Source of the DNA: a bacterium
GTDB lineage: Bacteria; Vulcanimicrobiota; Vulcanimicrobiia; Vulcanimicrobiales; Vulcanimicrobiaceae
Length of the DNA: 64,000 bases
Assembly: GCA_021790935.1 (NCBI GenBank)
Contig: JAJYFL010000008.1
Span: 1 to 64,000, forward strand
Direction: 5' to 3'
The notes below the pieces were generated by a model. It was not told the origin of the DNA. It worked only from the letters and a program-made list of their open reading frames with translations, and searched no databases. Numbering within the stretch: position 1 is the first letter of the stretch; each line of letters opens with the position of its first letter. Position numbers and translations under genes: made by a program. Positions 29,928 through 34,895 of this stretch are shown in pieces.

Positions 29928-31499
29928 ATGGCGAGTAACTCGGACCCATCTATCGAGCTCGACGGCAAGCATTTGAGCCTAGAGCAGATTCGCGCGGTCG
30001 CGGAAGACGGCGTTGCCGTGCGCGTTACTCCCGAGGCGCGCAGGCGCGTCGCCGCGGCGCGCGCTTTGGTCGACGAAAGATTCGCCTCCGGAGAGGCCAT
30101 CTACGGTGTGACGACGGGTTTCGGGCGCTTGGCCAACGTGCAGATCGCTCCGAAGGACGCCGAGCAGCTGCAACTCAATTTGGTGCGCAGCCATGCCGCC
30201 GGCACCGGCGCGCCGCTGGCCGAACGCGACGTGCGAGCTGCCGGTGTCTTGCGCGTCAGTGCGCTGGCGGCAGGGCACTCCGGAGTCCGCGAGGGCACGC
30301 TCGATCTTCTAATCGAGATCCTCAACCACGGAATCACCCCCGTGGTGCCGTCTGCGGGCTCGGTCGGCGCGAGCGGCGACCTCGCCCCGCTCGCGCACAT
30401 GACGCTGACCCTTATCGGCGAGGGTGAGGCCTTCTATCGCGGCGAGCGGATGCCGAGCGCGCGCGCCCTGCAGCTGGCCGGTTTGGAGCCGTTGCGTTTG
30501 GGCGCGAAGGAAGGCTTGGCGTTGGTCAACGGCACCGAGGTGATGACTGCCGTTGCCGCCCTCGCGCTTCTGCGAGCCGAACGCCTTCTGGCCGCCGCAG
30601 ACGTGATCGGCGCCATGGCGCTCGAGGCCTTTCTCGGAACCGACCGGGTCTTCGACCGGCGCATCAACGCGTTGCGGCCCCACGCGGGCCAAGCGCGCGT
30701 CGCCGATAACCTACGGGCGCTGCTGGCCGGCTCGCAGATCGTGGAGTCGCACCGGGAGTGCGGCCGCGTGCAGGATCCGTACTCGTATCGATGCATCCCC
30801 GTGGTCCACGGCGCCGCGCGCGATACGGCCGCGCACGTCCGGCGGGTCATCGAAATCGAAGTGATGTCGGTCACCGATAATCCGCTGGTCTTTCCCGACG
30901 ACGGCGAGTTTCTCAGCGGCGGCAATTTTCACGGCGAGCCGGTTGCGCTCTGCGCGGATTTCTTGAAGATAGCGCTCGCCGAGATCGCGAGCATCAGCGA
31001 ACGGCGGCTCTACCTGCTTCTGAATGCCGAAGAACGCGGGCTGCCGCTCTTTCTCACCGGCCGGTCGGGGCTGCAGTCGGGCCTCATGATCGTGCAGTAT
31101 TGCTCGGCGGCGTTGGTCAACGATAACAAGGGCTTAGCTTGGCCGAGCAGCGTCGATTCGATACCGACCTCGGCCGGCCAGGAAGATCACGTGAGCATGG
31201 GCATGACCTCCGCGAATAACCTGGTGCGCCTGCTCGATAACGTGGAAGGGGCACTGGCGTGCGAGCTGCTCGGCGCGCTCGTCGCGACGGATCTGCGCCG
31301 GCCGCTGCAGTCGGGCACAGGTACGCAGGCGGCCCACGAATGCGCCCGGGCCGCGATCGCGCCGTTGACGGACGATCGCGTGCCCGCTCCGGACATCGAA
31401 GCCGCGCGCGATCTAATCGCCTCCGGCGCCCTGGTTCGAGCCGCCGAGCGCGCCATCCGGTTGCCGCTGATCGGCCGGCCGCCGGGATCCGCTACGTAG
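29928..31499 (+). CDS. hutH: Histidine ammonia-lyase
   Basis: 523 residues. The active-site Ala-Ser-Gly that cyclises to the MIO cofactor is at 148-150 (GASGDLAPLAHM). The other family hallmarks are LVNGTEVM, QDPYSYRC and AGQEDHVSMG. It deaminates histidine to urocanate, the first step of histidine degradation. Downstream hut genes follow at 33234 after an inverted transporter gene. Its last 8 bases overlap the end of that convergent gene. Confidence 0.96.
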   Translation: MASNSDPSIELDGKHLSLEQIRAVAEDGVAVRVTPEARRRVAAARALVDERFASGEAIYGVTTGFGRLANVQIAPKDAEQLQLNLVRSHAAGTGAPLAERDVRAAGVLRVSALAAGHSGVREGTLDLLIEILNHGITPVVPSAGSVGASGDLAPLAHMTLTLIGEGEAFYRGERMPSARALQLAGLEPLRLGAKEGLALVNGTEVMTAVAALALLRAERLLAAADVIGAMALEAFLGTDRVFDRRINALRPHAGQARVADNLRALLAGSQIVESHRECGRVQDPYSYRCIPVVHGAARDTAAHVRRVIEIEVMSVTDNPLVFPDDGEFLSGGNFHGEPVALCADFLKIALAEIASISERRLYLLLNAEERGLPLFLTGRSGLQSGLMIVQYCSAALVNDNKGLAWPSSVDSIPTSAGQEDHVSMGMTSANNLVRLLDNVEGALACELLGALVATDLRRPLQSGTGTQAAHECARAAIAPLTDDRVPAPDIEAARDLIASGALVRAAERAIRLPLIGRPPGSAT

Positions 31500-32808
31500 G
31501 AAGGCTTGGGAAAAAGGCCAGAACGACCGAGACGATCGTCAGCAGCCCGACGATGGCGACCGTTCCCCATGCGATGACGTTGAAGGCCGCGCCGTTTACA
31601 TATTTGCCCATCAGCCGGCGATTGTTGATGAGGATCAGCATGAGGACGAGGATAGCCGGCAAGAGCGCGCCGTTGAGCACCTGGGAGTAAAAGATGATCG
31701 CGAGCAGCGGTGAGTGCGGCAGGAGCACGATGCTTGCCCCCGTGACGATCAGCGCCAGGTAGAGGCTGTAAAAAATCGGGGCATCTTTGAACGAGTTGTC
31801 CATGCCGCGCTCGAAGCCGAAGGCTTCGCAGACGTAGTAGGCCGTCGAAAGCGGCAGGATCGAAGCGGTGAAGATAGCCGCATTGAGCAGGCCGAAGGCG
31901 AACAGCAGCGACGCGAACTTCCCGGCCAGCGGCGCTAGCGCCGCCGCCACGTCTCCGGCATTGGTGATTTGCAGCGGGTGGGCGCTGTGAAGGTTGTGGA
32001 GGTAGATCGTTGCGGCGCTCGAGACGATGATGAAATAGGCGATGATATCGGTTACGAGCGCACCCGAGACGACGTCGATACGTGAGTACGGGTAGTCCGC
32101 CACGCGGATTCCCTTGTCGACGACCGCCGCTTGGATATAGAACTGCATCCACGGGGCGATCGTCGTACCGATAACGCCGATGGCCATGACGAGGTAGGCC
32201 GACGTCGGCGTAAAATGCGGCACCAGGGTCTGGTGAAAGACTTCGCCCCAGTTGGGGTGCACGACGATCGCGCTGACCACGTACGCCAAATAGGCGACGC
32301 AGAATGCAAAAAACACGCGCTCGACGACCTTGAGATTTCCGCGGGTGATCACGCCGAACACGAGCGCGGCCGCGGCGACGACCATGCCGTCGGTGAAGAT
32401 CCATCCCGGTACCGCATGCATCCACGGCATGAAGCCGTAAAAGATCGGGGCCGACCAGGCGATCCCGGCGAACTCGGCGGCGATGTTGCCGAGATCGCCC
32501 AGCACGAAGATGAGGAGCACCCAAAACGTAACCTTGACGCCGAAGTTTTCACGGATGAGATCGGCGAGGCCCTTGCCGGTGACCGCGCCCATCCGCGCGC
32601 ACATCTCCTGCGTCACGATCAAAGCCAGCGTTACCGGAATGAGAAGCCACAGCAGCTCGTAACCAAACTGCGCCCCGGCAAGCGAGTACGTGGTGATGCC
32701 GCCGACGTCGTTGTCGGCGTTGGCGGTGATGATGCCGGGCCCCACGATCGAAAGGAACATGACGACCGAGCGCAGGAGGTTGGGACGCTTCAAGAGAGCT
32801 GCGGGCAT
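31492..32808 (-). CDS. Nramp-related Mg2+ transporter (NRMT type)
   Basis: 438 residues from the ATG at 32808, about 11 membrane helices. The first-helix metal motif is DNDVGG (residues 32-37) instead of the canonical DPGN. In helix 6 the Ala-Pro-Trp of TTIAPWMQF replaces the canonical Met-Pro-His, losing the methionine that selects transition metals. Loss of this Met is a known trait of Nramp-related Mg2+ transporters. An M-box Mg2+ riboswitch lies 180-340 bp upstream on the same strand, which strongly supports Mg2+ uptake. It sits on the opposite strand inside the hut cluster, between hutH and hutU. Confidence 0.87.
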   Translation of the reverse strand: MPAALLKRPNLLRSVVMFLSIVGPGIITANADNDVGGITTYSLAGAQFGYELLWLLIPVTLALIVTQEMCARMGAVTGKGLADLIRENFGVKVTFWVLLIFVLGDLGNIAAEFAGIAWSAPIFYGFMPWMHAVPGWIFTDGMVVAAAALVFGVITRGNLKVVERVFFAFCVAYLAYVVSAIVVHPNWGEVFHQTLVPHFTPTSAYLVMAIGVIGTTIAPWMQFYIQAAVVDKGIRVADYPYSRIDVVSGALVTDIIAYFIIVSSAATIYLHNLHSAHPLQITNAGDVAAALAPLAGKFASLLFAFGLLNAAIFTASILPLSTAYYVCEAFGFERGMDNSFKDAPIFYSLYLALIVTGASIVLLPHSPLLAIIFYSQVLNGALLPAILVLMLILINNRRLMGKYVNGAAFNVIAWGTVAIVGLLTIVSVVLAFFPSLPT

Positions 32809-32917
32809 GGCGGAGGCCTCAGCGAACGAAGGTCGTCCGAGAAAACGCGTGCGGGATGCGTACCGATGCGCCGGAGCATGCGGTAAAACCGAACTGCATG
32901 AGGCGGTGTCCTTTGCC

Positions 32918-32975
32918 AAAAAAAAAGCGCCGACGGACCTCCCGCCAGGCGACGATCGCGAAACGATGAGCGTGC
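32918..32975 (-). terminator. Candidate riboswitch-controlled terminator
   Basis: On the minus strand a GC-rich segment, with a GCGCCG/CGGCGC pairing and smaller inner stems, runs directly into a T9 run (A9 at 32918-32926 on the plus strand). It lies between the M-box and the transporter start, the position expected for a transcription-termination expression platform. The exact fold was not computed. Confidence 0.5.
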
Positions 32976-32987
32976 GGCGCACGCGTC

Positions 32988-33147
32988 GCTCCTCAATGTC
33001 GAGTTTTAGCACTACACGTTATAGAGTCTGCACTCAGCCGTCTTAGGATACCGCCTTGATTCGGCGGTGCCTGGTGACCCGTTGGCGTCTCTCGACATTT
33101 CCGGGTAGCGGCGTGTCACCGTGTAGACGCCTCACCTAACGAGGAAT
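32988..33147 (-). promoter_or_regulatory. M-box (ykoK) magnesium riboswitch
   Basis: Read on the minus strand, the segment shows in order GTTAGGTGAGGC, ACGCCGCTACCCGG, AATGTCGAGAGACGCCAACG followed by GGTC, a variable stem-loop, then GTGCTAAAACTCGACATT and GAGGA closing the P1 stem with TCCTC at the 5' end (33141-33145 with 32990-32994). These are the conserved blocks of the M-box aptamer in correct order and spacing. It lies upstream of, and in the same direction as, the Nramp-related transporter. High Mg2+ would switch transporter expression off. Confidence 0.93.
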
Positions 33148-33233
33148 CCATTCACATGATACGCCGGGTGTCAATCCCCGGCGGCCCGCTGCAGGCTGCA
33201 AGGGCTCGGGCCGCCCGGCCGGAAGTGAACCTT

Positions 33234-34895
33234 ATGAGTACCGTCGATTCAGGACCTCGTACCGTACGAGCCCCTCGCGGACCGGAGCTCAGCTGCCGAG
33301 CCTGGCCTCAAGAAGCGGCCCTGCGGATGCTGATGAACAACCTCGATCCGCAGGTCGCGGAGCGCCCCCAGGATCTGGTCGTCTACGGCGGTAACGGTCG
33401 CGCCGCCCGGTCGTGGCCGGCGTTCGACGCCATCGTGCGCACCCTGCGGCGCTTGAAGAACGATGAAACCCTGATCGTGCAGAGCGGCAAGCCGGTCGCG
33501 GTGTGGAAGACGCACGAGCGCGCCCCGCGCGTGCTGATCGCGAACGCGAATCTGGTGCCGAAGTGGGCCGACTGGACGATCTTTCGCGAGCTCGAGGCGC
33601 AAGGCCTGACGATGTTCGGCCAGATGACCGCAGGCTCGTGGATCTACATCGGCACGCAAGGCATCCTTCAAGGTACCTTCGAGACCTTTGCGGAGCTGGC
33701 ACGCCGGCATTTCGGCGGCAGCCTGAAAGGGCGCCTCTGTTTGACGGCCGGTATCGGCGGTATGGGCGGCGCGCAACCGCTCGCCATCACGATGAACGAC
33801 GGCGTCGCGCTCGTCGTCGACGTCGATGCTTCGCGGTTGGAGCGGCGTTGCGAACTCCGTTATCTCGACATCGTAGCCGGCTCGCGCGACGAGGCGCTGC
33901 GGTCAGTTGAGGAGGCACGTGCTGCGGGCACGGCGCTCTCGGTCGGTTACGTGGGCAACGCGGGGGAAGAGTTCCCGGCGCTCTATCGCCTCGGACTGCG
34001 CCCGGACGCGGTGACCGACCAGACCTCGGCGCACGACATGATCGGCGGATACGTGCCGATGGGGCTCGCGCCGGACGAGGCCGCGCGGTTGCGAACGGAG
34101 CGGCCAGACGAGTACGAGCGCCGCGCCTTTCAGACGGTCGCCCGGCACGTCGAGGCGATGATCGCGTTCCTGGATGCCGGTGCCGTCGTCTTCGACTACG
34201 GCAACAACATTCGCGCCATGGCGCAGCGTGCCGGCGTCGAGCGCGCGTTCGATTTCCCGGGATTCGTCCCGGCTTTCATCCGCCCGCTGTTCTGCCGCGG
34301 TTCGGGTCCGTTCCGCTTTGCGGCGCTCTCCGGCGATCCGCGCGATATCGAACGCTGCGACGACGAGTTGCTGGCGCTGTTTCCGCACGACGAACGCTTG
34401 CACCGATGGATCGCGCTCGCGCGCGAACGCGTCGCTTTCCAAGGGTTGCCGGCGCGCATCTGCTGGCTCGGATACGGCGATCGCGCGAAAGCGGGGCTGC
34501 GCTTCAACGAGTTGGTGCGCGAGGGCGCATTGAAGGCACCGATCGTGATCGGGCGCGACCATCTCGACGCGGGCAGCGTCGCATCGCCGTACCGCGAGAC
34601 GGAGTCGATGAAGGACGGCAGCGACGCGATCGCCGACTGGCCGATCCTCAACGCGCTGCTCAACACCGCCGCCGGCGCCCACTGGGTCTCCGTGCACCAC
34701 GGAGGCGGGGTCGGCATCGGGTACAGCCTGCACGCCGGTATGGTGGTCGTCGCCGATGGAAGCGAGGACGCGCGCGAGCGATTGGAATGCGTGCTCGCCA
34801 CCGACTGTGGAATGGGCGTCGTGCGCCATGCCGACGCGGGCTACGATCTTGCGATCGAGACGGCCGACGAGACGGGCATAGATTGGCGGCTTTGA
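33234..34895 (+). CDS. hutU: Urocanate hydratase
   Basis: 553 residues from the ATG at 33234, preceded by GGAAG; the reading from 33156 adds 26 residues before the conserved region. Family motifs include YGGNGRAAR near the N-terminus, [12 protein letters not shown], the NAD-binding [18 protein letters not shown] and [11 protein letters not shown]. It hydrates urocanate to imidazolonepropionate with tightly bound NAD+. Its stop overlaps the hutI start. Confidence 0.96.

Follow-up and report, generated by a model that had tools for sequence, protein, structure and literature searches.

The window, the whole 64,000-nucleotide stretch of DNA analysed here, carries on its minus strand nrmT, a gene predicted to encode an Nramp-related Mg2+ transporter, behind a leader with a likely promoter, an M-box aptamer and a predicted intrinsic terminator (Table 1). 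The genome is 2.65 Mb in size and 98.8% complete, and the closest relatives that bear a name are MAGs of Candidatus Eremiobacterota (WPS-2), an uncultured phylum. The sequence-only reading had set transporter and riboswitch together at 31492-33147, which was right to within a few bases, the aptamer starting at 33150. The most likely start codon of nrmT is ATG 32808 and not GTG 33012, the start of the longest ORF, which falls within the aptamer.

Table 1 Features of the nrmT locus, in window coordinates
Feature	Position	Strand	Basis
hutH, histidine ammonia-lyase (convergent neighbour)	29928..31499	+	TIGR01225, 658.8 bits (cut-off 539)
nrmT, Nramp-related Mg2+ transporter (predicted), 438 aa	31492..32808	-	PF01566, 297 bits; EleNRMT, E 1.6e-90; NRMT signature
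Possible upstream ORF, 26 codons, between terminator and nrmT	32819..32899	-	Frame open in each of the genus's three genomes; none seen in other genera
Predicted intrinsic terminator (hairpin 32953-32927, T9 32926-32918)	32918..32953	-	Place of T-tract conserved in relatives; stretch between aptamer and T-tract unchanged in sister species
M-box (ykoK) Mg2+ riboswitch aptamer, RF00380	32985..33150	-	Covariance match; 166/166 and 165/166 identity in two sister species
Aptamer 5' strand GGATTCCTCGTTAGG, predicted ON-state partner of 32949-32935	33135..33149	-	Free minimum-energy fold; duplex z -3.7 versus shuffles
Likely promoter (TTGACA 33174-33169, 7-nt spacer, TATCAT 33161-33156; transcription predicted to begin near 33150)	33156..33174	-	Elements conserved upstream of relatives' M-boxes
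hutU, urocanate hydratase (divergent neighbour)	33234..34895	+	TIGR01228, 922.7 bits (cut-off 375)

As had been proposed, nrmT lies antiparallel between hutH and hutU, both of which were identified on the opposite strand above curated cut-offs. Past hutU follow genes that are likely hutI and then hutF, assigned because the gene order fits, although their model scores fell below the cut-offs. The convergent hutH and nrmT share 8 bp at their 3' ends (31492-31499), so read-through from hutH would produce antisense RNA against the nrmT transcript. Outside the genus, 21 of 27 relatives have hutH upstream of hutU, close by and on the same strand, and in none does nrmT lie between them, while the insertion is present in genomes of the window's genus. 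On gene order, the position of nrmT inside the hut cluster is derived and confined to this genus.

The M-box aptamer and its terminator

An M-box had been recognised from sequence alone in the minus-strand leader, a claim that would fall with a non-significant covariance score. The Rfam search gave a strongly significant match to RF00380 at 33150-32985(-), scoring 113.1 bits (E 1.8e-24) against a gathering score of 44 bits and covering the full model (positions 1-169 of 169). P1/P2 closes in this aptamer and the CGAGAG block is present; no other Rfam family gave a match within the window.

The terminator hairpin downstream of the aptamer is by itself only mildly more stable than shuffled sequences (z -1.8), and it is followed directly by the T9 tract. 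We searched for T-tracts within 300 nt in 55 M-box leaders, taken from relatives as well as from this genome; 38 of the 54 tracts found lay 46-67 nt past the aptamer, and most of these were preceded by a hairpin. In the free minimum-energy fold of the window leader (-92.4 kcal/mol) the 5' strand of the aptamer is paired with the terminator, and enforcing the aptamer restored the terminator hairpin (-86.3 kcal/mol). The ON and OFF folds are thus about 6 kcal/mol apart, a gap that could be closed by Mg2+-dependent tertiary folding.

If the leaders are Mg2+-OFF terminator switches, the 3' tract of each aptamer should complement its own terminator more strongly than that of another leader. Pairing between each 3' tract and its own terminator arm averaged -9.1 kcal/mol compared to -7.2 kcal/mol for mismatched pairs, and none of 20,000 permutations was as low, a statistic that still includes the shared ancestry of the leaders. 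An earlier test with loosely cut segments had given p 0.02 and cutting the exact tracts gave the stronger result; the outcome of the test depends on the choice of segments. Within the window leader itself the pairing between 3' tract and terminator arm is short (4 bp), and the 5' strand supplies most of the ON-state pairing. In many nrmT-type leaders the loop of the terminator contains GAGG, the complement of a CCTC in the aptamer 5' strand. Computationally, then, the terminator is coupled to the aptamer through alternative pairing with the aptamer ends, as expected of an M-box.

The segment spanning aptamer and terminator is identical at 233/233 and 232/233 positions in two sister species, compared to 102/110 for the stretch from the T-tract to the start codon. 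As judged from these sequences, the window leader and its relatives fit a Mg2+-OFF terminator switch, a mechanism known for M-boxes (Shin et al. 2014, PMC4072509).

NrmT as a predicted Mg2+ importer, and searches for others

The best solved relative of NrmT was EleNRMT (residues 14-430 aligned), with an E-value far below that of the best MntH (E 5.8e-22). Ramanadane et al. (2022, PMC8806188) take a DxxG motif of helix 1 and a TxxA/T motif of helix 6 as defining NRMTs, and NrmT carries both, as D34-V-G-G37 in TM1 and T215-T-I-A218-P-W220 in TM6; residue 218 is Ser in most of its Eremiobacterota relatives. Glu112 is retained, and the proton-path His of helix 6b is replaced by Trp220 in a segment (APWMQFYIQ) devoid of His. 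Conversely, the MntH model NF001923 scored 116.7 bits against a cut-off of 430, and DVGG and Ala218 stand in place of DPGN and the TM6 Met, which places NrmT outside MntH. The sequence-only reading had described a lost DPGN motif, which is accurate for the Pro and Asn but not for the Asp, which is retained; its replacement of the TM6 Met by Ala-Pro-Trp was correct, and its assignment to the Nramp-related Mg2+ transporters, rather than the Mn/Fe MntH proteins, is supported by the closeness to EleNRMT and by the published signature. Two paralogues are encoded in the same genome (G000:C6 and C24), both without an M-box, and the former retains the TM6 Met.

A second M-box-linked Nramp-related group was also observed (L174, L200, L201, L202, L203), with longer ORFs of about 550-600 codons, 34-37% identity to nrmT and DAGA instead of DxxG in helix 1.

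Searches of this 98.8%-complete genome for CorA (PF01544) and the MgtE pore (PF01769) gave no match, and the best score with the MgtA model, 284 bits, was below its threshold of 611. nrmT therefore looks like the sole recognisable Mg2+ uptake system here, provisionally at this completeness, and it is likely, though not certain, to be the main Mg2+ importer. Across 60 genomes the MgtE pore was above cut-off in none, CorA in 15 and MgtA in 8; a NrmT match was found in 59 and a detached MgtE_N-CBS protein in 56.

The partner gene mgtE_N and promoter spacing

In other bacteria and archaea nrmT often lies 3' of a gene that encodes a soluble MgtE_N-CBS protein, a partner gene described in M-box operons by Shin et al. 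(PMC4072509), and M-boxes of the relatives precede either nrmT or mgtE_N-nrmT. Here nrmT stands alone and the MgtE_N-CBS-PRC gene is on another contig (C11:169434). A single break of an mgtE_N-nrmT operon was rejected as the origin of the solo gene, as the tree requires three or more transitions between the solo and the operon arrangement; the history is more tangled than that. The mgtE_N gene is preceded by an M-box remnant of 127 nt (44.8 bits; L002 1501-1627, equal to G000:C11:169270-169396) without second arm, P1 or terminator. Its counterparts in sister species score 33-34 bits and differ by indels, and we rejected a functional small variant on account of these losses and indels. Some M-boxes of relatives (40 to 140 bits) precede genes for exported-looking proteins (L102 2033-3169, L082 1984-3168, L191 1140-3137(-), L193 2597-3505(-)), for which a Pfam search gave no match; such proteins would not be expected under the control of a Mg2+ riboswitch.

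A search before the window M-box for a sigma-70 promoter of the standard kind, with elements 16-18 nt apart, found none. TTGAC and TA(N3)T elements are conserved 5' of M-boxes, with a spacer of 7-8 nt at 31 distinct sites, 16-18 nt at 28 and 20 nt at one, and no site had a spacer between the two main classes. When TTGAC-TATACT pairs were counted genome-wide in 14 genomes of this family, 72 were spaced by 17-18 nt, 32 by 7-8 nt and 0-6 by any other length; the short class, about one helical turn below the normal 17-18 nt, recurs before topA and mgtE_N (G000:C9:181536, G000:C11:169244 and relatives of the same family), so the 32 sites are not independent. These spacings raise the speculative and rather doubtful idea of a distinct 7-8 nt promoter class for nrmT, mgtE_N and topA in this family of Eremiobacterota, read by a variant sigma factor or an activator common to Mg2+ uptake and topoisomerase I, with NrmT and the detached MgtE_N-CBS protein forming the sole Mg2+ uptake system.

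Predicted switching and known systems

We propose, with a probability of roughly 90%, that the leader is a Mg2+-OFF transcriptional riboswitch controlling a Mg2+ importer. From sequence comparison we infer that Mg2+ is the ligand of the aptamer, that its binding turns expression off and that NrmT transports Mg2+. When Mg2+ is ample the M-box aptamer would fold and P1/P2 close, sequestering both aptamer ends, such that the terminator hairpin could form and RNA polymerase would halt at T9. When Mg2+ is scarce the aptamer would be unstable and its ends would base-pair instead with the arm and the loop of the terminator; with the terminator blocked, nrmT would be made. NrmT would then import Mg2+, and probably Mn2+ too as EleNRMT does, without proton coupling.

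An improbable alternative is that the aptamer is real but the transporter carries mainly Mn2+ or Fe2+, whose uptake the switch would tie to Mg2+ only indirectly. EleNRMT also carries Mn2+ (PMC8806188), and the NrmT of Acidobacterium capsulatum, which lacks an M-box, restored Mn2+ uptake, acting as a Mn2+ transporter (PMC4072509); membership of the clade is therefore no proof of Mg2+ transport by itself. The binding site of NrmT is nevertheless of the Mg2+ type by sequence, the M-box-linked NrmTs assayed to date provide Mg2+ (PMC4072509), and the genome showed no further recognisable Mg2+ importer. Its G000:C6 paralogue, with a TM6 Met and no M-box, is the better candidate for transition metals. 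Even less probable, and very much so, is that the nrmT M-box is a decayed remnant with expression regardless of Mg2+. Such decay has befallen the other M-box of this genome, before mgtE_N; the nrmT aptamer, however, scores a full 113 bits and retains its terminator, and both are near-identical in sister species, in contrast to the variable sequence that immediately follows them.

A Mg2+-OFF switch at this locus would extend M-box/NrmT control to an uncultured phylum with few recognised Mg2+ importers; among the papers searched, none named both Eremiobacterota and riboswitches. The locus poses the question of whether a bacterium can rely on an NRMT alone for Mg2+ import, and a second one, left open by Shin et al. 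(PMC4072509), on the role of the soluble MgtE_N protein.

NrmT belongs to the same superfamily (PF01566) as the MntH/Nramp transporters of Mn2+ and Fe2+ but is without their DPGN and TM6 Met. With EleNRMT of Eggerthella lenta (PDB 7qia, PMC8806188) it shares the fold family, the DxxG/TxxA site, the retained acidic residues and the lost proton-path His; EleNRMT is a proven Mg2+ transporter with a solved structure, whereas the window NrmT is known from sequence alone. Also among the closest known systems are Ca_c0685 and Ca_c3329 of Clostridium acetobutylicum (PMC4072509), where an M-box leader with an intrinsic terminator likewise precedes an Nramp-related Mg2+ transporter and which have the mgtE_N partner gene in common with the window's relatives. 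The window differs in its phylum and in that nrmT stands alone among hut genes with the partner gene on another contig. M-box-controlled NrmT has already been published (PMC4072509), and the pair described here adds another case of the same kind.
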